DNA from: Mobilibacterium timonense
Lineage (GTDB): Bacteria > Bacillota > Clostridia > Peptostreptococcales > Anaerovoracaceae
DNA: 61,595 nucleotides
Reading direction: 5' to 3'
Assembly: GCF_900155555.1 (NCBI RefSeq)
Contig: NZ_FUHN01000007.1
Span: 555,055-616,649, forward strand
Shown here piece after piece: positions 48,093-61,595 of the stretch. The position numbers and the translations under genes were made by a program. How positions within the stretch are numbered: position 1 is the stretch's first letter; each line of letters starts with the position of its first letter. The notes under the pieces are model-generated. The model ran no database searches. It saw only the letters and a program-made list of their open reading frames with translations, and was not told the origin of the DNA.

Positions 48093-48130
48093 AAAAGCCC
48101 CGGGATTGGAAAATGTCCGGATCCCGGGGC
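48093..48130 (-). terminator. Intrinsic terminator of the nitrogenase-like/hyp operon
   Basis: On the minus strand GCCCCGGGAT pairs with ATCCCGGGGC in a 10-bp stem with a 14-base loop, followed by TTTTC. It lies 25 bp after the hypE stop and marks the end of the leftward operon. Confidence 0.88.
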
Positions 48131-48155: not shown

Positions 48156-49160
48156 CTAGCATATCCTCGGAAGGAGCTCTCCTGTAGGCTGAGGCAGTAC
48201 GGTCTCAGTCCCCAGTTCAGTTATGAGAGTTACTACTCCAGAGTGTTCCTCTGTAACTGTACCGATGTCCGCAGCATTCTCTGTGTGCTTACATCCGTGG
48301 AGAATGTCGAGCACTCCCTCTGCGTCCTCTTCAGGGACGAACATCACCAGTCTGCCCTCGCAGGCGAGGTAGAGCGGATCCAGCCCCAGCATGCCGCAGA
48401 CGCCTGCCACCTGCGGATCCACAGGAACTGAGGAGGAATCGAGCCTCACTCCCACTCCGCTCTGGTCAGCGATCTCATACAGGACAGTTCCCACTCCGCC
48501 CCTGGTGGCGTCTCTGATGACGTGGACGCCCGGATAAGTGCTGAGCACCTTGTGAACAGGTTCCCACAGTGGAGCGCAGTCGCTGGTGACATGGGCCTCC
48601 ATGCCGTAGTCGTCCCTCTCAAGAAGGATGGCGGTCCCGTGACGTCCCACGTCTCCCGTGACGATCACCCTGTCTCCCGGCCTGGCATTGGCTCCTGCCG
48701 GCGAAACACCTGGCATCAGCTCCCCCACTCCGGTGGTGGTGATGAAGATGCCATCTACCTGTCCCTTACCTGCCACCTTTGTGTCTCCGGAGACTATGTG
48801 GACTCCTGCCTCTGCGGCGGTCTCCGCCATGGACTTAACTATGAGGTCCAGCTTTTCCACCGGAAAGCCCTCCTCGATGACACAGGCGCAGGAGATGTAA
48901 AGCGGCTTTGCCCCCATGCAGGACAGGTCGTTCACGGTCCCGCAGATGCTCAGTTTCCCTATGTTGCCTCCCGGAAATTCCCTTGGTGAGACGATGAAGC
49001 CGTCAGTGGACATCGCCATGGCCCCCGCCGGAGGAGCGAGCACAGCCGCGTCATCCGCTGTAAGATACGGGCTGTCGAAGTATTTCTTGAAAATGCCGTT
49101 GATCAGCTGAGAAGTCTGCTTTCCTCCGGCTCCATGAGCCATGGTGATGAATTCTTCCAT
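48156..49160 (-). CDS. hypE: Hydrogenase maturation protein HypE
   Basis: The 334-residue protein is the PurM-like enzyme that dehydrates a carbamoyl group on its C-terminal Cys to a thiocyanate, the cyanide donor for Fe(CN)2CO. The sequence ends LLPRIC, so the essential C-terminal Cys is present. MAHGAGGKQTSQLI at the start and SGDTKVAGKGQVDGIFITTTGVG in the middle are family motifs. ATG at 49160 is chosen with GCAGGAGATTCC upstream. It is the last gene of the operon that starts with a NifH-like gene. Confidence 0.96.
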   Translation of the reverse strand: MEEFITMAHGAGGKQTSQLINGIFKKYFDSPYLTADDAAVLAPPAGAMAMSTDGFIVSPREFPGGNIGKLSICGTVNDLSCMGAKPLYISCACVIEEGFPVEKLDLIVKSMAETAAEAGVHIVSGDTKVAGKGQVDGIFITTTGVGELMPGVSPAGANARPGDRVIVTGDVGRHGTAILLERDDYGMEAHVTSDCAPLWEPVHKVLSTYPGVHVIRDATRGGVGTVLYEIADQSGVGVRLDSSSVPVDPQVAGVCGMLGLDPLYLACEGRLVMFVPEEDAEGVLDILHGCKHTENAADIGTVTEEHSGVVTLITELGTETVLPQPTGELLPRIC

Positions 49161-49233
49161 TGGAATCTCCTGCCTTTCTTTCACCTTTTATCGATCTCAT
49201 GGCTGACCTTCCGGCCAGCCACCTTGATCTTCT

Positions 49234-50310
49234 TTATTTCCTGATAAGCTCAAGAGAGCCGTATTTGTAGTATGCTGAGCACGTCCCTTCTCCCGACACC
49301 ATACATGCACCCACCGGGTGCTCCGGCGTGCAGGCCCTGCCGTACAGCGGGCAATCGTACGGCTTGATCTCCCCAAGGAGGATCTCTCCGCACCTGCATC
49401 CCGGGCTTCCCTTCGCGGTCATCTTCGGTATCTGGAATTTCTTTCTCGCGTCGTATCCGCTGAACTCATCGCGGAGCCTCATGCCGGAGTCCGGTATGAC
49501 TCCCAGGCCTCTCCACTCGGCATCGCAGGGCTCCATCACCCTGCCGACGATCTCCCTGGAAGGTCTGCTTCCCTCCTCCGTGACGACCCTCGGATAGCAG
49601 TTCTCTGCGAAAGGCTTCCCTTCCCCCAGCTTTACTATGATAGTAGCAAGGGCGGTGAGTATCTCGCTGGCGGTGAAACCCGTCACGGCGCCGGAGATGC
49701 CGTAGTCCCTGGCAAGCTCCCTGTACACCCCCATGCCGGTCATGGTGCTCACGTGACCCGGATACATGTAGGCGTCAGCACTCGTCCTCAGCTGGATATA
49801 CGCGCTTCTCATGGTCTTGTTGGCCGTTAAAAGGGAAAAGTTTTTTATTTCCTTTTTTGCGGCGTTCTCAACGGCTATGCATGCACCGGGAGTGGTGGTC
49901 TCAAAGCCCACCGCAAGGAAAACGACTTCCCTGTCAGGGTACTTTTCTGCGATCTCCAGCGCGTCCAGCGGGGAATAAACGGTCCTGACCTGTGCTCCCT
50001 TTGCCCTGGCCTGCCACAGGCTCATCTCAGAACCGGGCACCCGGACCAGATCTCCGAAAGTGCATATCACCGCATTCTTTTCCATTGCAAGGTATACCGC
50101 CTCGTCCATAAAGGACATCGGCGTCACGCACACGGGACATCCCGGCCCTGAGATCAGCTGTATGTTCTCCGGTAAAAGCGCTCTTATCCCCAGGCGGAAG
50201 ATCTCGTGGGTATGGGTGCCGCAGACTTCCATGATGCGTATGTCCGGACCGTCGTAGTTCTCGACGATGTCCCTGGCCCTGTCGATCGCACTTTTTCTGT
50301 TCTCTTCCAT
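49234..50310 (-). CDS. hypD: Hydrogenase maturation protein HypD
   Basis: The 358-residue protein is the Fe-S scaffold on which HypC and HypD assemble Fe(CN)2CO. Conserved cysteines are Cys30 in EVCGTHTHE, Cys58 and Cys61 in GPGCPVC, and the [4Fe-4S] set in the C-terminal third (GCRCGEI, DCPLYGRAC and GACMVSGEGTCSAYY). All are present. ATG at 50310 follows AAGAGGAACG. It lies 29 bp after hypC. Confidence 0.97.
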   Translation of the reverse strand: MEENRKSAIDRARDIVENYDGPDIRIMEVCGTHTHEIFRLGIRALLPENIQLISGPGCPVCVTPMSFMDEAVYLAMEKNAVICTFGDLVRVPGSEMSLWQARAKGAQVRTVYSPLDALEIAEKYPDREVVFLAVGFETTTPGACIAVENAAKKEIKNFSLLTANKTMRSAYIQLRTSADAYMYPGHVSTMTGMGVYRELARDYGISGAVTGFTASEILTALATIIVKLGEGKPFAENCYPRVVTEEGSRPSREIVGRVMEPCDAEWRGLGVIPDSGMRLRDEFSGYDARKKFQIPKMTAKGSPGCRCGEILLGEIKPYDCPLYGRACTPEHPVGACMVSGEGTCSAYYKYGSLELIRK

Positions 50311-50339
50311 TGCGTTCCTCTTGTTATCAGTATAGGTTC

Positions 50340-50549
50340 CTAATTCAGACCCGCCATGACCTGCTCGGCCTCGTCACCGTCGTCGGATCCGATCTTCGCG
50401 ATGGCAAGCCCCGCGTGTACCATAACGTAGTCACCCGGGTTCAGGTCCTCCACGAGCTCGGCCGAGATGGTCCTCTTCACTCCAGAAGCGTCTACCACGG
50501 CCATGCCGTCCCTGACTTCAGCGACCTTTGCTGGCAATCCTACGCACAT
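50340..50549 (-). CDS. hypC: Hydrogenase maturation chaperone HypC
   Basis: The 69-residue protein begins MCVGLPAKV, with the invariant Cys2 that carries iron to HypD, and has GDYVMVHAGLAIAKI with the conserved His45. It shuttles the Fe(CN)2CO group between HypD and the target protein. Only one HypC/HybG-type chaperone is seen. ATG at 50549 follows AGGAGGCAGTGAA, and the gene lies 48 bp after hypF. Confidence 0.96.
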   Translation of the reverse strand: MCVGLPAKVAEVRDGMAVVDASGVKRTISAELVEDLNPGDYVMVHAGLAIAKIGSDDGDEAEQVMAGLN

Positions 50550-50597
50550 TTCACTGCCTCCTCTTATTATCTTCTTCCTATTCCCGCATCTATTATA

Positions 50598-53048
50598 TTA
50601 CTTATCCGAAATCCTGTCCTGTTCCTCCAGGCGGTACATGGCGATGGCCGCCTGTCCCAGGGCGATGCCTCCATCGTTCGGCGGCACCTGGGAGTGGAGC
50701 AGCACGCGGAATCCCTCGCTCTTCAAGCCACTGTCCAGCATTTCCACCAGGAGGAGATTCTGCATCACTCCCCCGCTGAGGGCAATGGTGTTCAGGCCTG
50801 TGCTCTCCCTCGCCCGCAGGCATCCATCGATGGTCATTTCGGCGAGGAGCCTGTGGAACACGAAACCCAGACTGCCCTTCATTTCCTCCGCAAGGCCGCC
50901 TGACTGAGACGTCTCGGCAAGGACTTTTTCCCCGATCCACCGGAACAGCGCGTCGGTCCTGAGCTGAAAGAACTCCTGCGGACCTTCCGGCTCATCTGTC
51001 TCTGTGATCCTCAGCAGTCCTCCGGTCTCTTCCAGATACTTACGACACTCCTCCGCCAGCAACGCTGCCTGAGCGGAACTCCGGGCTTTTTCCCCTTGAA
51101 ACTGCAGCGCCATGGATGCCTGTCCCTCAAACGTGGACCTCTGGCATATCCCAAGCACCGCGCTCACGGCGTCGAAGAGCCTGCCGCAGCTGGTGGACTT
51201 TATCGCATTGATATTATTCTTTTTCATCATGGCGATGGCACGTCTGCCCGGCCCGTCTCCCAGGTCCAGGTCCTCGGCCAGGTCCGGTCCCATGGACGCG
51301 GCGATGCGCCAGCCCTCTCTCGAGGCCACATCACCGCCGGCATGGATGAACGGAGTTATGGAACCGATGCGCCTGAATCCGTCAAAGTCGGCGATCATGA
51401 ACTCTCCGCCCCAGATGGTGCCGTCCGTACCATAGCCGGTACCGTCGAATGACACCCCTATGACATTGTCAGTATACTCGTTTTCCGCCATGCAGGAAGC
51501 CACGTGGGCGTAGTGGTGCTGGACCTTCAGGAGCTGCAGGCCTTCGCCCGTCTCGCGAGCCAGCTTTTCACCGACCTCTCCCGTGTGATACCCGGGATGG
51601 AGGTCGCACACGACCGCCTCAGGCTCTATCTCCAGCAGGCGTTTCATTCTCTCCACCGCCGCCTCAAGGGCTCTTATGCTCCGGATGTCCGCCATGTCCC
51701 CGATATAGGGCGACATGTAGTACATGTCTTCCTTTGCCAGACAGAACGTGTTCTTGAGTTCGCCTCCCACGGCCAGCACCGAATGATGGATCTCACTGGG
51801 CATGATCACCGGAAGCGGGGCGTAGCCCCTGGACCGGCGGATCATGTAAGGCCTGCCCACGTAAAAGGACATCACGGTGTCGTCCGCCCTTATCCTTATC
51901 TTTCTGTTGTTTGAAAGGATCTGGTCGCAGAGGGGTGCCAGGAACTTCACGGCCTCCTGGTCGTCCATGGTGATCGGCGCACCTGAAGGATTTCCGCTGG
52001 TCATGATCAGCACATCCGTCATGTCCTCCCCGTCCGGATACTTGAAAAGCAGCATTTGCACGGGTGCGTAAGGAAGCATCACCCCTATGTTCGGATTGCC
52101 CGGTGCAGCGGCAGGAACCACCAGTCCGCCTTTTTTCTTCTCGAGAAGGAGGATCGGCTTCTGCGGTCCGGTTAGAAGGCCCTCCTCTTCCGGCGTGAAC
52201 AGGCACTCTCTGGCCACCGTGTCCAGGTCTCTCATCATCACTGCAAAAGGCTTTGCGTCCCTGTGCTTCAGCCTGCGAAGCCTCTGCACGGCTGCCTCAT
52301 CTCTCGCATCGCAGCAGAGGTGAAAACCTCCGATGCCTTTTACGGCCAGTATTCCTCCCTGTCTGATCACCTGCCGGGCCCTTATAATTGGTTCCCTGTT
52401 CCCCCTGCATAGCTGTTCTCCGTGCTCTCCCAGAATATACAGCTCCGGGCCGCACTCGTTGCAGCATACAGGCTGAGCATGATACCGCCTGGTGGACTGA
52501 TGGGTGTACTCGTAGCTGCAGTCCGGGCACATGGGGAACTCACCCATGCTGGTCCTCTCCCTGTCGTAGGGCATGGAGTCCAATATGGTGAGCCTCGGGC
52601 CGCAGGCGGTACAATTTATAAAAGGATGCAGGTACCGGCGGTCCTTCGGATCGAAAAGCTCACTTTCGCACTGAGGGCATGTGGCGATGTCCGGTGAGAC
52701 GAACACCAGGCCCTGATCCTTGCGGCTTTCGATTATGTGGAACCCCCTGTCCGGATCGCCCGGGTCGATCGGCCCGCAGGATCCCTCAGGGATCTCTTCC
52801 TCATCCATATCACGGGTCTTGAGCTTGAGGATCACCGACCTGTCCGGCGCCTTTTCCCGCAGATCTCCGAGAAAGAGTCCCATGGACTCCTCGTCTCCCA
52901 GAGCCCGGATCTCCACGTAGGAGCCGCGGTTGCACACGGTGCCCCGGATGCCCCTGTCTCTGGCCACGGTGGCCACGAATGGCCGGAACCCCACGCCCTG
53001 TACGATGCCGAATATTTTTATGAGAAGTCTTTTTTCACCGTCTGTCAT
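50598..53048 (-). CDS. hypF: Carbamoyltransferase HypF
   Basis: The 816-residue protein uses carbamoyl phosphate and ATP to carbamoylate HypE. It has an N-terminal acylphosphatase domain (GIVQGVGFRPF, Arg22), two zinc fingers with Cys124/127/146/149 and Cys174/177/196/199, a YrdC-like domain (about 215-390) and a Kae1-like domain with VQHHYAH and VSFDGTGYGTDGT. All parts are intact. Its ATG overlaps the TGA of the NifD/NifK-like fusion gene (ATGA), so the two are translationally coupled, which is the strongest link between the hyp genes and the nitrogenase-like genes. Confidence 0.96.
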   Translation of the reverse strand: MTDGEKRLLIKIFGIVQGVGFRPFVATVARDRGIRGTVCNRGSYVEIRALGDEESMGLFLGDLREKAPDRSVILKLKTRDMDEEEIPEGSCGPIDPGDPDRGFHIIESRKDQGLVFVSPDIATCPQCESELFDPKDRRYLHPFINCTACGPRLTILDSMPYDRERTSMGEFPMCPDCSYEYTHQSTRRYHAQPVCCNECGPELYILGEHGEQLCRGNREPIIRARQVIRQGGILAVKGIGGFHLCCDARDEAAVQRLRRLKHRDAKPFAVMMRDLDTVARECLFTPEEEGLLTGPQKPILLLEKKKGGLVVPAAAPGNPNIGVMLPYAPVQMLLFKYPDGEDMTDVLIMTSGNPSGAPITMDDQEAVKFLAPLCDQILSNNRKIRIRADDTVMSFYVGRPYMIRRSRGYAPLPVIMPSEIHHSVLAVGGELKNTFCLAKEDMYYMSPYIGDMADIRSIRALEAAVERMKRLLEIEPEAVVCDLHPGYHTGEVGEKLARETGEGLQLLKVQHHYAHVASCMAENEYTDNVIGVSFDGTGYGTDGTIWGGEFMIADFDGFRRIGSITPFIHAGGDVASREGWRIAASMGPDLAEDLDLGDGPGRRAIAMMKKNNINAIKSTSCGRLFDAVSAVLGICQRSTFEGQASMALQFQGEKARSSAQAALLAEECRKYLEETGGLLRITETDEPEGPQEFFQLRTDALFRWIGEKVLAETSQSGGLAEEMKGSLGFVFHRLLAEMTIDGCLRARESTGLNTIALSGGVMQNLLLVEMLDSGLKSEGFRVLLHSQVPPNDGGIALGQAAIAMYRLEEQDRISDK

Positions 53049-55588
53049 ATCTCAACACCAGCTCTGCGCCAGAAGTCGTCCTCCGTTTTTATCCCCGCCA
53101 GCTCTCCCGACGCCACGTAGTGTGGAAGCTCCAGGTATCTGCCATTCCATCCCGGGATGGCCCTCTTGTAGACAGGATCTCCCAGGACCACGTCGTACCT
53201 CCCTCCGAAGACCGTCTTCGTAAGGTCGCATTCCTCACGGATAACGTGATCATCTTTTTCCATGAATTCCTTCCTGGCCATGAACCATGTGGCGACGTCC
53301 ACGGAAGCACCCTCTCCGAGCGCCCCACGGACGATCTCCCTCATGGAATTCGCAAAAAACTGCTGGTGGATGATCAGGACGCGGGTGCCCTTAGGGATGG
53401 CCTCCAGCTTCCGGCAGAGTTCCTGCGCTCGCCTCTCCTCGATCGGATATCCCACCGTGATCGGAATTCCGAACCTGTCCTCCAGGTACCTCGCCGGCTT
53501 GAGCCCGGACGGGGACACCACGGCGATGCGGTCCAGCGTGCCGGCCCTTCTCAGGTCTTCAAGGGAGTCCCCCCTGCCAAAGACCACACACTCCCCGCCA
53601 TCCGGGAGAAGGCCCTTTTCCCTGAAAGCGACCTCCAGTGCTTCCGGGCTGTCCAGCGCCGGAATGTCGAGAGGCGTGGCCCCCAGAACGCCCAGGCGGT
53701 GCCTCACTGCGGAGCCATCTTCCTCCAGCTCGTCAGGATCAACGGTGAATGTTTTTATTAGCTGCATGTATGCCTTTTCCTGGCCCTTGTCGTATAGCTC
53801 CAGGCCGTTGGTCTCCACAGGCACCACCGGGATGCCGAAGTCCCTCTCCATGAGCTTCTTGAGTGCCCTGTAATCCGTGGCGATGACCGACGGCACCGGG
53901 GTGCCCGTGAGCGCCACGAACCTGGCGTCTGTCTTCTTAAGTGCCTTGCCCGTCTTCTCTATCAGGAGCTGATCCCGGCCGAGTATGGCGTCGAGATCCC
54001 TCAGCCCGGCGCTGAAAACGTCTGACTGCCGGCCGAGCCACCGCGGCTCATCGTAGCCGCAGACATTTCCCACGCAGCCGCCTGCGTCCATTATTATCTG
54101 AAGGCCACCGTATTCATAGAGGACAGAACTCGCGCCGCTCTGGTCCGGTGTGAACGGCGACATGAAGAGCCTCATGCCCTTCGGCAGCTTTTCCTCCGGG
54201 TCCAGATACGGATCGTATGAAGAAGGAGGGATGTCCTTCCCCTGGAGCTCTTCGTCCCAGATGACGTTGGTCTCTTTCTTCCATTCTCCGGCCAGGGCTC
54301 TTCTTATCTCTCTCGAAAAAGAGATGAATCCCGTGTATCCGAATGGCTGCGCCTCGGAGTCCCAGGGGATGTTAGGCGTGTCGGGGAAGTAGTATACCGC
54401 ATCCCTTCCGATGGTCAGATCCGCCTTCTCTTCCCCACGGTAGTTCACCATGGAGGGATCCAGCGCGGCGTAAAATCTCACGTCCGGATCAAGCTCTCCC
54501 AGCTCTTTGATATAAGGAAAGTCTTCGGCCGCAGGGTTGGCGAACACGCTGCTCACCCTGATACCAAGTCTCGTCAGGGCGAGGGCCATCTCAGCAGGAC
54601 TTCCGTCCACCACCTGCCCGATGGCTATCGACTTCCCTCTGCATGCTTCCTTGAGCTTCTCCGTCTCCTCACTGGCCTGAACCTCCCACTTTTCCAGGTC
54701 CACCTCTGCACCAAGTGCCCTGGCAAGGCCTCTGTACTGTTTTCCTATCCTGTCCGTCTCGTATACCCTGGACATCTCGACGAAGGGCATCCCCAGCCTC
54801 TCCTGAAGACCGGCCGCGGCCTTTCTGCCCTCAGGATGGAGGAGTATGTTGAAGTTTGCTGCGCCCATCTGGAGGAACTCGTCCAGTGTCTCGCAATCCG
54901 AGACCTGCCTGACGTCAGTGATACCCATCTGGCCCAGGACGTCGTACAGCTCGCTGTCCTTGTCCATCGAGGAAAAGAACCCCAGCAGGTTCACCATTCG
55001 CGACTTCACGGGGAGCCTCTCCAGCAGACCGTAGATGCTCTCTCTCACCGCCACCATTGGAGGGTTCTTCCCCTCTCTTGTGAGGGCGTACATATACGTC
55101 GGCACCACCCTGACTCCGGTGGTCTCCTCGGCCTTGCGGCACACTCTCTCCAAGTCCGTCCCGAGAAGAGCGTCAACACAGGTGATACATATCACGACCA
55201 CCTTCGGGTCCTGCCCCCTGGATCGACAGACCTTGAGTATCTCTCTGATGACGGCGGGTATGTCGGTGAGATGGCGGCCTGTGACCAGGTCGTTCTCGTC
55301 CATCTCGAGGAAAAAGGTCCTGTGGCTGTATCCTCCCATGTCTCCCAGGATCGTGGTGTTCCGCCCGCAGCAGGCCGGGGCCACCAGGAGCATCACAGAC
55401 TCAGGTATCACCAGCCCCGCTCTCTTGACTCCGAATCCCTGGGCTCCAGGAGAGTTGTAGGACAGAGTTGCAGGCGAAGAGTAGATGAGCCCCTTTCCGC
55501 TCACCATCTCCTCAGGCATTCCACCCGGCCCAGATCCGGCCAGCTCTCCGGCCGTGATGTAAAACGCTTCTCTAGTTTTTCCAGACAT
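53045..55588 (-). CDS. Nitrogenase component 1-like protein, natural NifD-like/NifK-like fusion
   Basis: The 847-residue protein is two component 1 domains in one chain. Residues 1 to about 465 align without gaps over long stretches with the D-like protein at 57625-58962, and about 472-847 with the K-like protein at 58994-60412. Candidate cluster ligands are Ser46, Cys74 and Cys137 (in ICITCVDALLGTD) in the first half and Cys505 in DAGGCVGN in the second half; Cys73 is an extra. The residue that aligns with Cys234 of the separate D-like protein is Leu. I chose the ATG at 55588 with CGGGAGA upstream. It follows the NifH-like gene by 48 bp and overlaps hypF. Its substrate is unknown, and it is not a nitrogen-fixing NifDK. 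Confidence 0.88.
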   Translation of the reverse strand: MSGKTREAFYITAGELAGSGPGGMPEEMVSGKGLIYSSPATLSYNSPGAQGFGVKRAGLVIPESVMLLVAPACCGRNTTILGDMGGYSHRTFFLEMDENDLVTGRHLTDIPAVIREILKVCRSRGQDPKVVVICITCVDALLGTDLERVCRKAEETTGVRVVPTYMYALTREGKNPPMVAVRESIYGLLERLPVKSRMVNLLGFFSSMDKDSELYDVLGQMGITDVRQVSDCETLDEFLQMGAANFNILLHPEGRKAAAGLQERLGMPFVEMSRVYETDRIGKQYRGLARALGAEVDLEKWEVQASEETEKLKEACRGKSIAIGQVVDGSPAEMALALTRLGIRVSSVFANPAAEDFPYIKELGELDPDVRFYAALDPSMVNYRGEEKADLTIGRDAVYYFPDTPNIPWDSEAQPFGYTGFISFSREIRRALAGEWKKETNVIWDEELQGKDIPPSSYDPYLDPEEKLPKGMRLFMSPFTPDQSGASSVLYEYGGLQIIMDAGGCVGNVCGYDEPRWLGRQSDVFSAGLRDLDAILGRDQLLIEKTGKALKKTDARFVALTGTPVPSVIATDYRALKKLMERDFGIPVVPVETNGLELYDKGQEKAYMQLIKTFTVDPDELEEDGSAVRHRLGVLGATPLDIPALDSPEALEVAFREKGLLPDGGECVVFGRGDSLEDLRRAGTLDRIAVVSPSGLKPARYLEDRFGIPITVGYPIEERRAQELCRKLEAIPKGTRVLIIHQQFFANSMREIVRGALGEGASVDVATWFMARKEFMEKDDHVIREECDLTKTVFGGRYDVVLGDPVYKRAIPGWNGRYLELPHYVASGELAGIKTEDDFWRRAGVEI

Positions 55589-55636
55589 AGGACGATCTCC
55601 CGAAATCATTCAAACCGGCCGCCTTTGCCTGCGGCA

Positions 55637-56404
55637 CTACTCATTCTCCCGACATTCGTGGTCCTTGAGCACCCTGTCGGCCAGGGCGAAGAAGGCGCCT
55701 GCTATCTCCGAGTCCGGAGCGCCCTCCACCACGGTCATGCCCTTATCCTCGAACTCCAGGATCTCCCTGCTCCTCGGTATCTCTCCTACCACGGGAATAC
55801 CTGCGTTCTCCGCGAACTCCAGCACCTTCGCCTCTTCGTTCTCCACGTTCCTGTGGTTGAACACTATTCCCCTCACCTTGGCGTAACCTCTGTCGGCGAA
55901 ATTGTCCACCGCAGTCTTGATGTTGTTTGCGGCATACAGTGCCATCTTCTCTCCCGAAGTGACGATCAGGATGTCCTCTGCGTACCCTTCTCTGATGGGT
56001 GCCGCAAAGCCTCCGCAGACCACGTCACCGAGCACGTCGTAGAGCACTATGTCAGGCTGGAACTTCTCGAAGACCCTCAGGTCGTCCAGCAGGTTGAATG
56101 TGGCGATGATGCCCCTTCCCGCACAGCCGATCCCCGGCGTAGGGCCGCCCGCCTCGACGCAGTAGACACCTCCGAAGCCCTGACGGATGATATCGTCTAT
56201 ACCAGGCTCCTCGTCGTACTCCCTCATGTAGTTCATAACAGGGGTCACCGGATCTCCGTGAAGGAGGTTTATGGTGGAATCAGCCTTAGGGTCGCAGCCT
56301 ATCTGCATGACCTTATATCCCTTGAGGGCAAAGGCCGCGGCCAGATTGCTGGTGACAGTGGATTTGCCTATTCCGCCCTTGCCGTAAACAGCCAGCTTTA
56401 TCAT
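55637..56404 (-). CDS. NifH-like ATP-dependent reductase (copy 1)
   Basis: The 255-residue protein is a P-loop Fe-S ATPase of the NifH/BchL/CfbC family. [10 protein letters not shown] at residues 7-16 is the P-loop; Cys94 (GIGCAGRG) and Cys130 (DVVCGGF) should hold a [4Fe-4S] cluster between two subunits. It passes low-potential electrons to a component 1 partner, here most likely the fusion protein encoded next. The ATG at 56404 follows GAGGAGAGGAAG; an in-frame ATG 51 bases upstream lies inside the leader hairpin and is rejected. It is the first gene of the leftward operon. Confidence 0.93.
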
Positions 56405-56437
56405 GTTCTCTTCCTCTCCTCGCATGCCAGACATATC

Positions 56438-56466
56438 AAAAACGGCGGCTTCCATGGGAAGCCGCC
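56438..56466 (-). terminator. Terminator hairpin in the leader of the leftward operon
   Basis: On the minus strand GGCGGCTTCC and GGAAGCCGCC form a perfect 10-bp stem with a 3-base loop, followed by GTTTTTG, only about 34 bases before the ATG at 56404. No gene lies between it and the divergent promoter, so it looks like an attenuator for the operon. Confidence 0.75.
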
Positions 56467-56613
56467 ATTGTCTCTCGCAACTGATCTATAACTGATTGTT
56501 ACTTTCAACGTCTTCCCGCTTGGATAACCTTACAGTCAGTCTTCATTGTCAGTGAATTCTATCACTGTCGGGAGACTCAAGTCAACGCGGAAAACAGGTA
56601 TTCAGCGACTATA
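56467..56613 (-). other. Structured leader and putative promoter of the leftward operon
   Basis: Read on the minus strand, GTCTCCCG (56576-56569) can pair with CGGGAAGAC (56518-56510) with one bulged base. Within this CAGTGA and TCACTG (arms at 56550-56555 and 56562-56567) form a hairpin with a 6-base loop. A weak promoter (TTGACT at 56633-56628 and TATAGT at 56613-56608, 14-bp spacing) lies before it. The pattern of a closed multi-stem element followed by a terminator suggests a riboswitch-like leader. I could not match it to a known aptamer. Confidence 0.4.
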
Positions 56614-56644
56614 ATATGTGAATACTTAGTCAATTTTCTCTTCG

Positions 56645-56672
56645 TTGACAAAATACGACCTCCTGATAAAAT
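56645..56672 (+). promoter_or_regulatory. Promoter of the rightward nitrogenase-like operon
   Basis: TTGACA and TAAAAT are spaced by 16 bp, so transcription would start near 56679. Confidence 0.7.
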
Positions 56673-56679
56673 AACCCTA

Positions 56680-56797
56680 GCGCAGAAAACTGACAGACGA
56701 TGATCAGCTCAGAGTCGGAAGTGGCCTGTACGAGGCTGCGCCCGAATACTGTTACGCAGAAACGCTGATGCTTCGCCTTGCCGCGAGGCATTTTTTT
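56680..56797 (+). promoter_or_regulatory. Leader with terminator hairpin of the rightward operon
   Basis: The transcript would open with GCGCAG (56680-56685), which can pair with CTGCGC (56736-56741) to close a 50-base loop. The same CTGCG can also pair with CGCAG at 56755-56759, so two folds exclude each other. Then ATGCTTCGC and GCGAGGCAT form a 9-bp stem (one G-T pair, 6-base loop) at 56768-56791 with seven T residues, an intrinsic terminator about 30 bases before the start codon. Attenuation control is likely; no known aptamer is recognised. Confidence 0.6.
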
Positions 56798-56828
56798 ACA
56801 ACCTCTGTACGACAGGAGGATTCAGGAA

Positions 56829-57581
56829 ATGAAAAGGATCGCAATTTACGGAAAGGGCGGCATAGGAAAGTCCACAACGGTCTCAAACATGTCCGCCGCG
56901 CTGGCCTCGAAGGGCCTTACGGTGGTGCAGGTCGGCTGTGACCCCAAGGCCGATTCGACCATCAGCCTCCGCAACGGGCAGGAGCTCCGCCCGGTGCTGG
57001 ACGTGTACAGAGAGAAGGTGAAGTCCATCACCCTTGAGGACATGTACATCCGCGGATATGGCGGTGTCATATGCGTAGAGGCCGGAGGTCCGACCCCGGG
57101 GATAGGCTGTGCCGGCCGCGGCGTGGCCAAGGCTCTCGAACTTCTCAAGGAAAAGGGGGCCGAGGAAAAGCTGAAGCCCGACGTGATGTTCTTCGACGTG
57201 CTGGGGGACGTGGTGTGCGGAGGCTTTTCCATGCCTCTCCGGAGGAACTACACCGATGCCGTGTATGTCATAAGCTCAGGTGAGCAGATGGCCATCCACG
57301 CCGCCATGAACCTGGGCCTTGCCATGGACAACTTCAAGAGGCGCGGCCACAACGGCCTGGAAGGCATAATCGGAAATAAGCGGAACGTCCCTGACGAGGA
57401 CGAAAAGCTGCTCCAGCTCTCTGAGGACCTGGAATGTCCGATCGTCCAGATCCTCGAATACAGCGAGGTAGTCAAGAAGGCCAGCGACCAGGGCCTGACC
57501 GTATGCCAGGCTTTTCCGGGAGACCCGGTGATCGACAGCTACGTCAGTCTCGCCGAGAAGCTCATGGGACAGAAGCTGTAG
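56829..57581 (+). CDS. NifH-like ATP-dependent reductase (copy 2)
   Basis: The 250-residue protein has the same fold and motifs as copy 1: [10 protein letters not shown] at residues 7-16, Cys94 in GIGCAGRG and Cys130 in DVVCGGF. Outside these motifs it is clearly different, so the two are old paralogues with their own partners. It should reduce the D-like/K-like pair encoded next, using ATP. ATG at 56829 follows AGGAGG with a 9-base gap; an upstream in-frame start overlaps the leader. First gene of the rightward operon. Confidence 0.93.
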   Translation: MKRIAIYGKGGIGKSTTVSNMSAALASKGLTVVQVGCDPKADSTISLRNGQELRPVLDVYREKVKSITLEDMYIRGYGGVICVEAGGPTPGIGCAGRGVAKALELLKEKGAEEKLKPDVMFFDVLGDVVCGGFSMPLRRNYTDAVYVISSGEQMAIHAAMNLGLAMDNFKRRGHNGLEGIIGNKRNVPDEDEKLLQLSEDLECPIVQILEYSEVVKKASDQGLTVCQAFPGDPVIDSYVSLAEKLMGQKL

Positions 57582-57624
57582 CTGCTGCATCCGCACCGCT
57601 GTGAAACACTCAAGGAGGAATCAC

Positions 57625-58962
57625 ATGTTAGTAGATCTCCACGATCCGGACCCGTCAGGCGCTGAAGTCCGGGTCAGCGAAATAAATGAAACGGAACCAT
57701 TCAGGGACACCCTTCAGTACACGTGTCCGTCAAGGGGAACCTGGACCATAACCCACACCGCCACCCTGGTACCGGGAGCGCACCAGATATACGTTGGAGC
57801 TTCCGCATGCCTCAGGGGCGTCGTGCTGTCCGCCGCAGAGTTCGAAGGCATGGACAGGTTCTCAATGGTCATGATCGAAGAGCGGGACATCCTCTCAGGA
57901 GACATGGAAGAGCTCTTCATCGAGGGCGTATCGGACATCATCGACAAGCTCCCGAGGCGGCCTTCAGCCGTCATGGGATACACCGGCTGCATACACCACT
58001 TCCTGGCGACCGATATAGACTACATTTACGACACTCTTAGAGAGCGGTATCCCGATATAGACTTCATCAGCTGCTACATGACCCCTACAATGGAAAAGAA
58101 CGAGGTCACTCCGGAGGAGTACATCCGCCAGCAGATCTACGGCGGCCTGCGGCCGGGCGAGAAGGATCCGATGTCGGTAAACATGATCGGCAGCAACGAG
58201 GCCATCACCCCTGAGAGCGACCACATGAGGCTCCTCCAGGACAACGGATACACCGTAAGAGACATCTGCCGGTGCATGACATATCCTGAATACAAAGAAA
58301 TGAACAAGGCATCCCTCAACATCTGTTCCATGAACGTGGCGAAGTTCGGTGCAGAGGATCTGAAAAACCGCCTCGGACAGGACTACATCTACATGCCGTA
58401 CACCTGGGACATGGACGAGATCGACCGGGATATGAAAAGGCTGAGCGAGCGCCTCGGCGTTGCTCTGGATCCGGAGCGCCTGTCGGAAAGGCGCAGGGAG
58501 GCGATGAGCGCCCTGGAGAGTTGCAGGAAAAAGCTGGGCGACACTCCCATAGTGATAGACATGAGCAGCACGACCCGCTTCTTTTCTCTTGCGAAGCTCC
58601 TTCTGGAGAACGGGTTCAACGTCACCAGGATCTACGGAGACGTGGTCCAGCCCGACGACTGGGACGCCCTCCACTGGCTGCAGGATAACTATCCTGACCT
58701 GCCTCTCCGGGCGACCAAGAATTTCAAAAGCCGCTACCTGCCGCGAAACGACGCGGAGAAGAACGGCGGCCGCCTCCTGGCCATCGGCCAGAAGGCCGCG
58801 TATTTTTCCGGCACGACCCATTTCGTGAACATGATCGAAAACAACGGCTGGTACGGATACGAGGCCATCATCCGGCTCTGCGACGAAATGGAGGCTGCGA
58901 TGGACCGGGAGGACGACGTCAAATCCATAATACAGGTCAAGGGATTCGGCTGTTCCGCATAG
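57625..58962 (+). CDS. Nitrogenase component 1-like protein, D-like subunit
   Basis: The 445-residue protein has the NifD/BchN-type order. Cys34 (YTCPSRGTW), Cys62 (ASACLRGVV) and Cys122 (GYTGCIHHFLATD) have spacings of 28 and 60, close to BchN (26, 51, 112) and NifD (62, 88, 154). Cys217 and Cys234 (NICSMN) lie where NifD has its cofactor Cys, but the NifD cofactor His position seems to be Tyr (GWYGYEA). It likely forms a complex with the K-like protein and takes electrons from NifH-like copy 2. ATG at 57625 follows CAAGGAGGA; a GTG upstream precedes that site. Confidence 0.88.
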   Translation: MLVDLHDPDPSGAEVRVSEINETEPFRDTLQYTCPSRGTWTITHTATLVPGAHQIYVGASACLRGVVLSAAEFEGMDRFSMVMIEERDILSGDMEELFIEGVSDIIDKLPRRPSAVMGYTGCIHHFLATDIDYIYDTLRERYPDIDFISCYMTPTMEKNEVTPEEYIRQQIYGGLRPGEKDPMSVNMIGSNEAITPESDHMRLLQDNGYTVRDICRCMTYPEYKEMNKASLNICSMNVAKFGAEDLKNRLGQDYIYMPYTWDMDEIDRDMKRLSERLGVALDPERLSERRREAMSALESCRKKLGDTPIVIDMSSTTRFFSLAKLLLENGFNVTRIYGDVVQPDDWDALHWLQDNYPDLPLRATKNFKSRYLPRNDAEKNGGRLLAIGQKAAYFSGTTHFVNMIENNGWYGYEAIIRLCDEMEAAMDREDDVKSIIQVKGFGCSA

Positions 58963-58993
58963 GGACACGGCACACGAACACGGAGGTAGAGCC

Positions 58994-60412
58994 TTGAAGC
59001 AGGCAGTACGAGTACTTTCAACATATTCAGCCGATCTTTTCGGCATCAATTCCGTCCTCTACGAGCTGGGGGGCATGGTGGTGATGCACGACGCCTCCGG
59101 CTGCAATTCGACATACAACACCCACGACGAGCCCCGCTGGTACACCATGGACAGCATGATCTACATCTCCCACATGATGGAAAACGACGTCATCCTGGGA
59201 AACGACGAGAAGCTCATAACGGACATCTGCGACGCGGCGGCGGAGAAAAAGCCCCGGTTCATCGCGGTGACCGCGGGCCTTATCCCCCTTTTCCTGTCCA
59301 CCGACATGAAGGGGATCGCGAGGGTGATAGAACAGCGGACGGGGATACCGTCATTCGGCTTCACCACCAACGCCATGAGCACCTACGTGCTCGGGGCCAA
59401 CGAGGCCCTGGACCAGCTGGTGAAGAGCTTCGCCGGCCGTTCGGAAAAGTCCTCAGGGACCGGCGACAGAATCCGGATAAACCTTCTGGGCGTGACTCCC
59501 CTCGATTTTTCCGTAGTGGGCAACGTGGAGGCCCTCCGGAAGATCTTCACCGACGCCGGGTTCGAGATCGTATCCACGATGGCAATGGGCACCACCCTCG
59601 AAGACATCTCCCGGGCGGGAGACGCCGACGTGAACGTGGTGGTCTCGTCCATCGCCAGGGATGCGGCCCTCACCATGAAAAAGAAGTTCGGCACTCCGTA
59701 CGTCACCGGCATGCCGATAGGGAGATATGCCGCGGAAAAGATGGTGGCGCTGGTGCGGGATGCTGCCGCCGACGGCCGCTGCCGCAGCCTCGCAGGCGCC
59801 TCGGGATCGGACGAAGATCCTTTTTTCGATTCCCTTCTCTACCCCGACGAGGAATACAAGACCGGCCGCGACCCCCACGGCATACGGCAGGTGGCGAAGT
59901 CAGGCACCTTCGTCATCGGTGAGTCCTTTGCGGCTTCCGCCATGCGCACGTGCCTCGAAAAGGATCTCGGCATGAAGGACGTCCACCTCATCGCCACAAC
60001 TGAGCTGACCTGCGGGCTCCTGAGGGACGGCGACCTCCACTCGAGGGAGGAGGACGACCTGGAAAAGGCTCTTTCCGGCGCATCGACCGTCATCGGAGAT
60101 CCTCTTTTCAGCCGGATCCTCCCGGGGAACCGCGACCACAGGGCTTGGGAGGACAGCAAAGCCGCCCACGACGCCAGGGATAACCGCGACCAGAACATGG
60201 ACACCCTGAAAATGGCAGCCGGCGACGGATTCCGGTTCGTGAACCTGCCCCACGAGGCCTACTCGGGCAGAATGTACCGCAGCCACATTCCGGTGTTCAT
60301 AGGGCCGGATGTCCTGCCGTGGCTGGAGGAGCAGCTTAAGACTCAGCACATCATCTACAGCAACGACATCGAGATGGCCAACCGCCCGTTCGTATCACAA
60401 GCGAAATACTGA
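58994..60412 (+). CDS. Nitrogenase component 1-like protein, K-like subunit
   Basis: The 472-residue protein is the homologue of the second half of the fusion protein; shared segments include NSVLYELGG, GCNSTYNTHDEPRW and the following helical region. Only one of the three NifK cluster cysteines is seen, Cys37, at nearly the same place as Asp36 of BchB. Positions expected for the other two read Ser12 and Leu96. It ends in a basic/aromatic tail. The start is TTG at 58994 with CGGAGGTAG at a good distance. It lies 31 bp after the D-like gene. Confidence 0.86.
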   Translation: MKQAVRVLSTYSADLFGINSVLYELGGMVVMHDASGCNSTYNTHDEPRWYTMDSMIYISHMMENDVILGNDEKLITDICDAAAEKKPRFIAVTAGLIPLFLSTDMKGIARVIEQRTGIPSFGFTTNAMSTYVLGANEALDQLVKSFAGRSEKSSGTGDRIRINLLGVTPLDFSVVGNVEALRKIFTDAGFEIVSTMAMGTTLEDISRAGDADVNVVVSSIARDAALTMKKKFGTPYVTGMPIGRYAAEKMVALVRDAAADGRCRSLAGASGSDEDPFFDSLLYPDEEYKTGRDPHGIRQVAKSGTFVIGESFAASAMRTCLEKDLGMKDVHLIATTELTCGLLRDGDLHSREEDDLEKALSGASTVIGDPLFSRILPGNRDHRAWEDSKAAHDARDNRDQNMDTLKMAAGDGFRFVNLPHEAYSGRMYRSHIPVFIGPDVLPWLEEQLKTQHIIYSNDIEMANRPFVSQAKY

Positions 60413-60575
60413 CGAGCGCCGGCGGAAGTCTGGCCCCTTTATTTTTCCGGTCTCAGGTGATATAAGTAACTTAGCAGTTCAGCAGACTGGATGCACCGCG
60501 ACTCAGGGGCACCGTGCTGCTGGAGAGAAAAGACGGACCTGCAAGTGATTTCTTTAAGAAAAAAGGAGAACTATC
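60413..60575 (+). other. Gap with no clear feature
   Basis: The 163 bp between the K-like gene and the TM1266-like gene contain an inverted repeat (CAGCAG and CTGCTG, near 60480 and 60520) but no T run, so its role is unclear. AAAAAGGAGAACTATC before 60576 is the ribosome site. Confidence 0.3.
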
Positions 60576-60821
60576 ATGGATAACAGAGTTGCAATCATCG
60601 GCATCATCGCGGAGAGCACCGACAGCGCTGAGGAGATCAACGCACTGCTCCACCAGTATTCGCAGTACATTGTCGGAAGAATGGGAATACCTTACAGAGA
60701 GAGGCAGATCAACATCATCTCCGTGATCATGGATGCGCCTCAGGACGAGATCAGTTCCCTGTCCGGAAAGATCGGAAGGCTGGACAACGTGAGCTGCAAG
60801 GTCACATATTCGTCTAATTAG
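60576..60821 (+). CDS. TM1266-type small protein (iron-only hydrogenase system regulator)
   Basis: The 81-residue protein matches the TM1266 family: VAIIGIIAESTDSAEEINALL, then YIVGRMGIPYRERQINIISV and LSGKIGRLDNVSCKV. The fold is ACT/NikR-like. Members usually sit next to HydE, HydF or HydG genes for [FeFe]-hydrogenase assembly and are thought to be regulators, though evidence is thin. Here it follows a nitrogenase-like operon, which is unusual. ATG follows AAAAAGGAGAACTATC. It is 25 bp from IS copy 2. Confidence 0.88.
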   Translation: MDNRVAIIGIIAESTDSAEEINALLHQYSQYIVGRMGIPYRERQINIISVIMDAPQDEISSLSGKIGRLDNVSCKVTYSSN

Positions 60822-60846: not shown

Positions 60847-61595
60847 AATCATAACCACCAGTTGAACTGGTGGTTTGTCCTTGCCCTAAAAGGGCCTGTT
60901 ACTTGCAGGCGTCTTAAGACGCACCGAAATAGACTGCCAACCGCATCTCTATTTTCCGGCTGCGCCTAAGGGCGCTTTTTATTATGCCTTCGTATTCTTG
61001 CTACCCGTGAACGGGTCTATGTACTCCTTCAATGTTAATTGATCATTTGCGATATCTTCTTGCAGTTGGTTTCGTATGTATTCTGCGATTGCCTTTTTGT
61101 TTCTGCCAACTGTATCGACATAATAGCCACGGCACCAGAAATGCCTGTTCCCATACCGATATTTCATATTCGCATGTCTGTCGAATATCATCAGTGAGCT
61201 TTTTCCCTTCAGATATCCCATCACTTGCGATACGCTGTATTTTGGCGGAATTGATATCAGCATGTGTACATGATCAGGGCACAACTCCGCTTCTATTATT
61301 TCTATGCCTTTCTGATCACACAACTGCCTAAGTATCTTGCCAATATCCTCTTTTATTTTTCCGTAGATAATTTGTCTCCTGTACTTCGGCGCAAACACTA
61401 CGTGATACTGACACCGCCACTTCGAATGTGTTAAACTATTGATGTCGGTTTTGGTAATATTACCCATCGATTTATTCCTCCTTTGTTACATGAGTGCGGT
61501 TGGAAGCCTCATTCATGATATCACAGGAGGTTTTTTCTTGAAGCTAAAGCTTCTTACTCCACCGGCTTAGCCGGTGGTTTTTTTACACTAAAGAT
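60847..61595 (-). mobile_element. IS200-type insertion sequence, copy 2
   Basis: This repeats 3-751 without any difference I can see, including hairpins and the transposase gene, and runs to the last base of the window. Its junction lies 25 bp after the TM1266-like gene. Confidence 0.85.
60982..61467 (-). CDS. tnpA: IS200 family HUH/Y1 transposase TnpA
   Basis: This 161-residue protein is identical to the one at 138-623, with the HUH motif His66-Val-His68 and likely nucleophile Tyr130. The identity suggests a recent copying event or ongoing activity. Confidence 0.95.
   Translation of the reverse strand: MGNITKTDINSLTHSKWRCQYHVVFAPKYRRQIIYGKIKEDIGKILRQLCDQKGIEIIEAELCPDHVHMLISIPPKYSVSQVMGYLKGKSSLMIFDRHANMKYRYGNRHFWCRGYYVDTVGRNKKAIAEYIRNQLQEDIANDQLTLKEYIDPFTGSKNTKA

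Follow-up and report, generated by a model that had tools for sequence, protein, structure and literature searches.

Introduction

Among the closest described systems to the gene cluster reported here are the routes that equip hydrogenases with iron-bound carbon monoxide (CO) and cyanide (CN). In [FeFe]-hydrogenase maturation, tyrosine is the starting material from which HydG builds Fe(CO)2CN, the unit then used by HydE and HydF. In [NiFe]-hydrogenase maturation, HypF and HypE use carbamoyl phosphate to build a thiocyanate on the last cysteine of HypE, the cyanide is passed to the iron of the HypC-HypD complex, and the product of the route is Fe(CN)2CO. The CO and CN ligands of the H-cluster are regarded as products of HydG; however, industrial acetogens as well as the gut and rumen bacteria considered here lack it and keep HydE, HydF, and [FeFe]-hydrogenase. 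The cluster analyzed in this study lies in a 61,595-nt stretch of Mobilibacterium timonense (GCF_900155555.1, contig NZ_FUHN01000007.1, positions 555,055-616,649; hereafter the window) and joins hypF, hypC, hypD, and hypE with two sets of nitrogenase-like genes. We propose, with a probability of roughly 0.78, that it replaces HydG: HypCDEF and two nitrogenase-like reductases would make the iron-CO-CN unit of the H-cluster, which would be handed on to HydE and HydF.

Among the acetogens relevant to this proposal, Clostridium ljungdahlii carries the cluster, and Clostridium autoethanogenum is its close relative. A survey from 2022 failed to find hydG in five of eight acetogenic clostridia but located it in C. 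drakei, C. scatologenes, and, by motif, C. autoethanogenum (PMC9431212). The same survey describes HypCDEF without HypA/HypB in five acetogenic clostridia, treats the two observations as separate puzzles, and names a divergent HydG, atypical radical S-adenosylmethionine (SAM) candidates, or free CO and CN as ways out; it lists the C. autoethanogenum hyp genes as CLAU_RS01730-01745, and the word "nitrogenase" occurs in its text once, within a reference title (PMC9431212). An electron-bifurcating [FeFe]-hydrogenase characterized from C. autoethanogenum (Wang 2013) is cited in two further papers (PMC9004356, PMC12905484).

Gene content of the cluster

The first-pass annotation of the window described a leftward run of a NifH-like gene (H1), a NifD/NifK-like fusion gene (DK), and hypFCDE, with a second set running divergently from it, comprising a NifH-like gene (H2), separate NifD/NifE-like (D2) and NifK-like (K2) genes, and a TM1266-family gene. 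This arrangement is real, and family models match the named genes. The leftward operon has the order H1, DK, hypF, hypC, hypD, hypE, and the rightward operon the order H2, D2, K2, TM1266, as follows:

48156..49184, minus strand: hypE; TIGR02124, 409 bits (cut-off 251.6); the protein ends in LLPRIC
49234..50310, minus strand: hypD; TIGR00075, 411 bits (cut-off 192.8)
50340..50549, minus strand: hypC; TIGR00074, 64.5 bits (cut-off 48); MC N-terminus and conserved His45
50598..53048, minus strand: hypF, carbamoyltransferase; TIGR00143, 693 bits (cut-off 466)
53045..55609, minus strand: DK, 854 amino acids, NifD-like and NifK-like halves; PF00148 (Oxidored_nitro) matched twice
55637..56404, minus strand: H1; PF00142 (Fer4_NifH), 296 bits; open reading frame (ORF) open from 56455
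56829..57581, plus strand: H2; PF00142 (Fer4_NifH), 264 bits
57601..58962, plus strand: D2, NifD/NifE-like; PF00148, 67.9 bits
58994..60412, plus strand: K2, NifK-like; PF00148, 108.9 bits
60576..60821, plus strand: TM1266-family gene; TIGR03959, 113.7 bits (cut-off 60.8); putative regulator of the iron-only hydrogenase system

All four HypCDEF proteins and the TM1266 protein of the window thus pass the curated cut-offs, and HypF contains the acylphosphatase, zinc finger, YrdC, and Kae1-like Pfam domains. The ATGA overlap that had been claimed between the DK stop and the hypF start is found at 53048-53045. H1 probably starts at the ATG at 56404, which was picked by eye from a Shine-Dalgarno-like sequence, and H2 probably at the ATG at 56829.

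HydG in genomes with and without the cluster

Genome searches covered 80 handles, comprising 11 carriers of the cluster from a class sample, 50 genomes from the 80 fetched loci, and 19 non-carriers, the latter being the first listed genomes without a cluster match (G002 left out). With G392 and G355, G394 and G318, and G416 and G210, pairs whose match places and E-values coincide, each counted once, 58 distinct carriers were compared. HydG scored above the cut-off in a single carrier, C. drakei, compared with 15 of the 19 non-carriers. HydF was above the cut-off in 57 carriers (all except G407) and in the same 15 non-carriers, HydE in 56 carriers (G422 has a piece of it and G432 none), and the [FeFe] catalytic subunit in 53. 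Two non-carriers (G005, G008) possess the catalytic subunit, with HydF and HydG both absent. In the C. ljungdahlii genome (G393), the sole match to the HydG model is its HydE (E 7e-19). The genome of the window encodes hydE, hydF, and hydA away from the cluster, and HydG was not found in it; its HydA of 581 amino acids contains TSCSPGW, MPCTAKKFE, and CPGGC, which we take to be the three H-cluster motifs.

The same pattern appeared when 391 genomes sampled evenly across the class were searched: HydG was found in 239 genomes, HydF in 261, both in 232, and HydG only in seven. All 11 carriers in this sample have HydF and none has HydG, whereas HydG is present in 232 of the other 250 HydF-containing genomes at E 1e-90, and in 234 after a permissive re-search of the remaining 18, which recovered HydG in pieces in G302 (above the cut-off when joined) and G074 (a 136-residue fragment, below it). 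The difference between 0/11 and 234/250 gives a Fisher value of 1.7e-12. The 16 HydF-containing non-carriers still without HydG comprise five genomes with a variant of the cluster described below (variant B), six that are 65-86% complete, and five that are 95-99% complete.

Shared ancestry or incomplete assemblies might also generate such an anti-correlation, since some of the genomes with HydF and without HydG are incomplete, HydG was recovered as fragments in two, and sequences of one clade are not independent. Yet the exclusion recurs within narrow groups. Genus g66 includes six carriers without HydG beside three non-carriers that contain it (G085, G241, G329); genus g149 includes two carriers without HydG and one genome with it, G336; and family f1 includes two carriers without HydG, four other genomes with it, and two more from which both HydF and HydG are absent. 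The genomes compared in these groups are 97-100% complete (G000, 90%), and the exclusion also extends across four phyla, which makes an origin in ancestry or assembly very improbable.

Conservation of the cluster and its linkage to hydE and hydF

A protein search with DK scored at least 7993 candidates, at least 3767 of them at E 0.001; the 120 matches listed are 800-891 amino acids long and 44-94% identical to DK. Scanning species genomes yielded 414 places, and the locus counts reported here cover the best 80 of these 414, many of them on contigs that end early. DK with a neighboring NifH-like gene is present in 80/80 loci, accompanied by HypF in 73, HypC in 67, HypD in 67, HypE in 64, D2 in 59, K2 in 57, and TM1266 in 40. 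Among the 44 loci that span 20 kb or more, HypC, HypD, and HypE are found in 44 each, HypF in 42, D2 in 41, K2 in 39, and TM1266 in 28. The gene directly after DK is hypF in 70 of the 80 loci, so that the coupling of nitrogenase-like and Hyp genes, noted earlier for the window, is not confined to one genome. Among the ten exceptions, five are contigs ending at DK (L060, L066, L068, L070, L076), L073, L074, and L080 have hypF at the opposite end of the cluster, and L038 and L061 gave no hypF within the locus. Genus g66 (L089-L094) encodes D and K in two unfused frames, of 432-467 and 313-346 amino acids, and fusion of the two is therefore not required.

The hosts are Clostridia, Mitsuokella, Atopobiaceae/Coriobacteriaceae, one Desulfovibrio, and one member of the Lentisphaeria, and the carriers thus belong to Bacillota, Actinomycetota, Thermodesulfobacteriota, and Lentisphaerota, the last two represented by one metagenome-assembled genome (MAG) each. 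Locus L080 is labeled Pseudomonadota and groups with Bacillota.

By tblastn, hydF and/or hydE were located in 31 of the 80 loci (HydF in 27, HydE in 17). The two proteins had first been recognized by their sequence among clustered neighbor families, and curated models agree where checked: C. ljungdahlii HydF scores 589.6 bits, and G416, G437, and G438 contain HydE and HydF model matches beside HypD on the same contig, as seen in L035, L073, and L080. In L035, a single run reads TM1266-hydF-hydE-H-D2-K2-H1-DK-hypF-hypC-hypD-hypE, and in L073, L074, and L080 the hydF-hydE pair lies between K2 and hypF. The near-absence of HydG from carriers that keep HydE, HydF, and HydA, together with this linkage, is the basis for proposing that the cluster replaces HydG. 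Most carriers share HydE, HydF, and HydA with the HydEFG pathway, frequently with hydE/hydF and TM1266 in linkage with the cluster, whereas the radical-SAM tyrosine lyase HydG is missing in 57 of the 58 carriers, which possess HypCDEF and two nitrogenase-like systems instead.

Hyp proteins and [NiFe]-hydrogenases

Key cysteine residues of the cluster HypC, HypD, and HypE proteins are kept in all aligned sequences. The C-terminal Cys342 of HypE, corresponding to the last cysteine that we take to carry the thiocarboxamide/thiocyanate in known HypE proteins, is kept in 63/63 aligned sequences, HypC Cys2 and His45 in 53/53, and HypD Cys58 and Cys61 in 65/65; with HypE Cys342, HypC Cys2, and HypD Cys58/Cys61 retained, residues required for the CN half of the Hyp route are present. 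In a HypD tree, the cluster proteins form one branch (support 95/98) apart from 11 other HypD proteins taken from elsewhere in carrier or other genomes (a twelfth row, L152, falls within the cluster branch and is the cluster copy of L030), a support value to be taken cautiously because the tree contains several long branches.

HypD is present in all 58 carriers, with a second copy in seven (the two matches in G429 are two pieces of one gene and were not counted). The [NiFe] large subunit (PF00374) gave no match in 47 of the 58 carriers, including the genome of the window, and the coupling is thus not always found beside an ordinary hyp-dependent hydrogenase, a possibility that the first-pass annotation had raised. 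Five carriers (G393, G396, G397, G398, G440) match PF00374 over the whole subunit; in six more, the match covers only 67-70 residues within a frame of about 365 amino acids. HypB exceeds the cut-off in 24 of the 58 carriers and does not set carriers apart.

These data bear on the reading that the Hyp genes are a [NiFe]-hydrogenase maturation set placed beside nitrogenase-like genes by chance. In its favor, HypCDEF pass the curated cut-offs, HypB occurs in the 24 carriers mentioned, and G393 and G396 have no HypD other than that of the cluster. Nevertheless, the absence of the large subunit from 47 carriers led us to drop this candidate, and three of the five genomes with the whole subunit (G397, G398, G440) have a second HypD, in each case outside the cluster branch; we regard a chance association as extremely improbable. 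In G393 and G396, where the only HypD stands beside a [NiFe] large subunit, the cluster may serve both hydrogenases. The likeness to the HypCDEF assembly of the [NiFe] Fe(CN)2CO group therefore extends to all four proteins and their key cysteines, whereas the differences are that the window cluster lacks hypA and hypB, that 47 of the 58 genomes have no [NiFe]-hydrogenase, and that the cluster HypD proteins form a separate branch.

The genome of the window, itself without a [NiFe]-hydrogenase, encodes hypB together with a HypA-like gene at a distance of about 21 kb from the window (L155 6855-10738, G000:C3). The HypA-like gene scores 72 bits and does not reach the cut-off of 88, and the pair adjoins a gene for a GltD-like iron-sulfur flavoprotein (oxidoreductase) of 938 amino acids.

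Nitrogenase-like proteins

Both H1 and H2 contain the P-loop GKGGIGKS. The [4Fe-4S] cysteines C111 and C147 of H1 (numbering of the long ORF) are invariant in 93/93 rows by best-hit assignment, and C111 and C147 of H2 (ORF numbered from 56778) in the 19/19 rows assigned to H2. In DK (n = 52), C80, C81, C144, and C512 are present in all sequences, C141 in 98%, and C517 in 94%; D2 keeps C70 and C130 in 61/61 aligned sequences, and K2 keeps C37 in 94% of 54. The nearest solved structures in PDB profile matches are NifE/NifEN for DK, D2, and K2, with NifE the best for D2, and the cysteines aligned with the inter-subunit [4Fe-4S] ligands are C81, C144, and C512 of DK, C70 and C130 of D2, and C37 of K2. 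In profile alignments, the residue opposite the NifE cysteine for the FeMo-cofactor or its precursor, a cysteine that we take to be the cofactor ligand in known NifE and nitrogenase proteins, is H in the DK of the window, M in D2, and S in K2, and N, L, and S, respectively, in the family profiles. The D2 of the window has a cysteine (Cys242) two residues before this position, which is not conserved.

None of the curated nitrogenase, NifEN, DPOR, or CfbCD models is reached at its cut-off by H1, H2, DK, D2, or K2. The best-scoring curated models for H1 and H2 are CfbC and NifH, with CfbC giving 309.6 and 271.3 bits, respectively (cut-off 402). DK scores 29 with nifD (cut-off 654) and K2 22 with nifK (cut-off 427); the NifE model (cut-off 505.1) gives 90.6 bits for DK, 68.5 for K2, and 21.9 for D2, and the nitrogenase-like proteins of the window lie far under the DPOR cut-offs. 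One more NifH-family match in the genome of the window covers 49 residues at 35.9 bits, above the low cut-off of that family, and is probably another P-loop ATPase.

The proteins therefore resemble NifEN in their best structural matches and in the aligned inter-subunit cysteines; in contrast to NifEN, those of the window lack the cofactor-holding cysteine, and the D and K halves are fused in DK. With the group IV reductases (DPOR BchLNB, CfbCD) they share a NifH-like ATPase and D/K subunits without FeMo-cofactor ligands, whereas the cluster proteins remain under all curated cut-offs, and no tetrapyrrole gene was recognized by eye among the recurrent neighbors. Since the Fe-protein and inter-subunit cysteines are kept and the cofactor cysteine is absent, H1/H2 with DK and D2K2 look, judged by their sequences, like ATP-driven electron injectors into a site other than a FeMo-cofactor.

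Three other functions were rejected: nitrogen fixation, given the missing FeMo-cofactor ligand and scores far under the nitrogenase cut-offs; tetrapyrrole reduction, given the CfbC/DPOR scores and the recurrent neighbors as read by eye; and anti-phage defense, with no PADLOC match for DK, D2, or K2.

The first-pass annotation had supposed that the reductase either serves the Hyp pathway or uses a Hyp-built iron group. The coupling behind that supposition is real and conserved; the hydrogenase target was missed, and the second option, a new reductase that carries a Hyp-built Fe-CN-CO group and is unrelated to hydrogenase, does not appear to hold. The absent cofactor cysteine in DK, D2, and K2 would leave room for such a group, but a new reductase leaves unexplained why HydG is lost where HydE, HydF, and HydA are kept, and likewise why hydE/hydF lie inside the cluster. 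With these neighbors, TM1266, and the near-complete exclusion of HydG all speaking against it, we consider this option quite improbable.

Variant B and related gene sets

The five variant B genomes (G069, G142, G228, G370, G378; loci L127-L131) have HydF, lack HydG, and carry H2-D2-K2, in stretches that also hold TM1266 and/or hydE/hydF. Parts of a Fec-type (Fec/Btu) ABC transporter are encoded in the four variant B loci that were read (L127, L128, L129, L131), identified in L127 by model (substrate-binding protein, FecCD permease, and ATPase) and in the other three by eye. In a K2 tree, the proteins of variant B and of the clusters with DK and HypCDEF (variant A) form one clade (100/100) in which the two variants are mixed, which suggests that H2-D2-K2 is the shared core, with DK-HypCDEF either added to it or replaced in variant B by something else. 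Moreover, because variant B has no HypD, Hyp cannot be the sole source of CN.

Accordingly, H2-D2-K2 alone could replace HydG, with H1-DK-HypCDEF as an accessory improving or altering the ligand supply and exchangeable for an imported iron compound. The set common to both variants, the mixed K2 clade, and the lack of HydG and HypD in all five variant B genomes argue for this arrangement. Against it, the Hyp genes stay with DK, as hypF is next to it in 70 of 80 loci, HypC, HypD, and HypE are present in 44/44 loci of at least 20 kb, and HypD is found in 58/58 carriers; we therefore judge it unlikely.

Five other H-D-K sets (G072, G141, G148, G179, G269; L095-L099, L156-L158) form a sister group and fall outside the K2 clade. 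In the three that were read by eye (G141, G269, G072), the gene after K encodes a similar binding protein, joined in two of them by a permease and an ATPase.

Proposed role of the cluster

The exclusion of HydG, the TM1266 gene, and the hydE/hydF neighborhoods together point to H-cluster maturation as the target of the cluster. We regard the replacement of HydG by HypCDEF and the nitrogenase-like reductases as a strong inference from exclusion, linkage, and repeated swaps, and the chemistry as predicted. In this scheme, HypF and HypE would convert carbamoyl phosphate to HypE-bound cyanide, and HypC-HypD would hold the iron that receives it. H1 and H2 would deliver ATP-driven, low-potential electrons to the NifEN-like DK and D2K2, which may carry out the reductive step that turns a Hyp-type Fe-CN unit into a CO-rich H-cluster unit. 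Because Fe(CN)2CO carries too little CO and too much CN per iron for the H-cluster, the reductases are proposed to supply the CO; in the most speculative step, the CO ligands would arise from CO2 (or a C1 unit) reduced on the HypC/HypD iron by the nitrogenase-like reductases. A complete second route to the H-cluster ligands, with CN delivered through HypF/HypE to the HypC/HypD iron, CO obtained by CO2 reduction, and Fe(CO)2CN formed without tyrosine or HydG, is put forward tentatively, at somewhat less than even odds.

Several observations weigh against the replacement of HydG by the cluster. C. drakei (G396) holds HydG together with the cluster, and many carriers are MAGs. Five carriers have no [FeFe] catalytic subunit above the cut-off (weaker matches in G395, G419, G423, and G431, none in G432), and G432 also lacks HydE. 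All five variant B genomes are without DK, HypD, and HydG, and four of the five related H-D-K sets lie in HydG-containing genomes. G393 and G396 have a [NiFe] large subunit with the cluster HypD as their sole HypD. Five near-complete genomes with HydF (G160, G280, G283, G334, G368) have neither HydG nor the cluster, and represent either another HydG-free solution or a loss; in G280 and G368, HydE is below the cut-off and other, weakly similar nitrogenase-like genes are present. Finally, the 2022 survey assigns a HydG to C. autoethanogenum, whose genome lies outside the present search, and proposes atypical candidates for the other species (PMC9431212).

If the replacement is correct, the Hyd, Hyp, and nitrogenase-like machineries would be joined in one pathway, an orphan nitrogenase-like group would gain a role, and Fe-CO/CN chemistry would proceed without radical cleavage of tyrosine. 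The idea is directly testable in genetically tractable acetogens. To our knowledge, nitrogenase-like reductases have not been described as working with Hyp proteins on an iron-CO/CN cofactor. In titles and abstract openings, with preprints and most subscription papers outside the search, no published link between nitrogenase-like proteins and HydG, Hyp, or the H-cluster was found, and prior publication is possible. With no counterpart known to us or found in the literature searched, this combination appears, from the gene content, to be new, and its HydE/HydF half to be of a known kind. Both puzzles of the acetogen survey, the missing hydG and HypCDEF without HypA/HypB, would then be answered by one cluster (PMC9431212).

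Control regions and adjacent genes

The strong terminator that had been placed at 48130, after hypE, was recovered as a hairpin at 48130-48097; a simple terminator scan misses it, the loop being longer than that scan allows. Hairpins are also present in the leaders of both divergent operons (56441-56828; fold z -3.9 and -2.2):

48097..48130, minus strand: rho-independent terminator after hypE; fold z -4.2 versus shuffles, followed by UUUUC
56441..56585, minus strand: leader of the H1-hyp operon; promoter-like TTGACT-18-TAGAAT at 56585-56556; terminator-like hairpin at 56469-56441
56645..56828, plus strand: leader of the H2 operon; promoter-like TTGACA-16-TAAAAT at 56645-56672; hairpin at 56767-56792 with a T-run

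The Baileyella locus L004 (8794-9147) has the same promoter-hairpin layout with different stem sequences, which suggests that the divergent operons are under transcription attenuation. A riboswitch in the control region was dropped, as no Rfam match reached the gathering score.

Directly after TM1266, an ORF at 60982-61467 encodes what we take, from its sequence, to be an IS200-type transposase. Two ORFs with the same 161-amino-acid start lie about 22-23 kb outside the window (L155 4583-5068 and 5336-5821).

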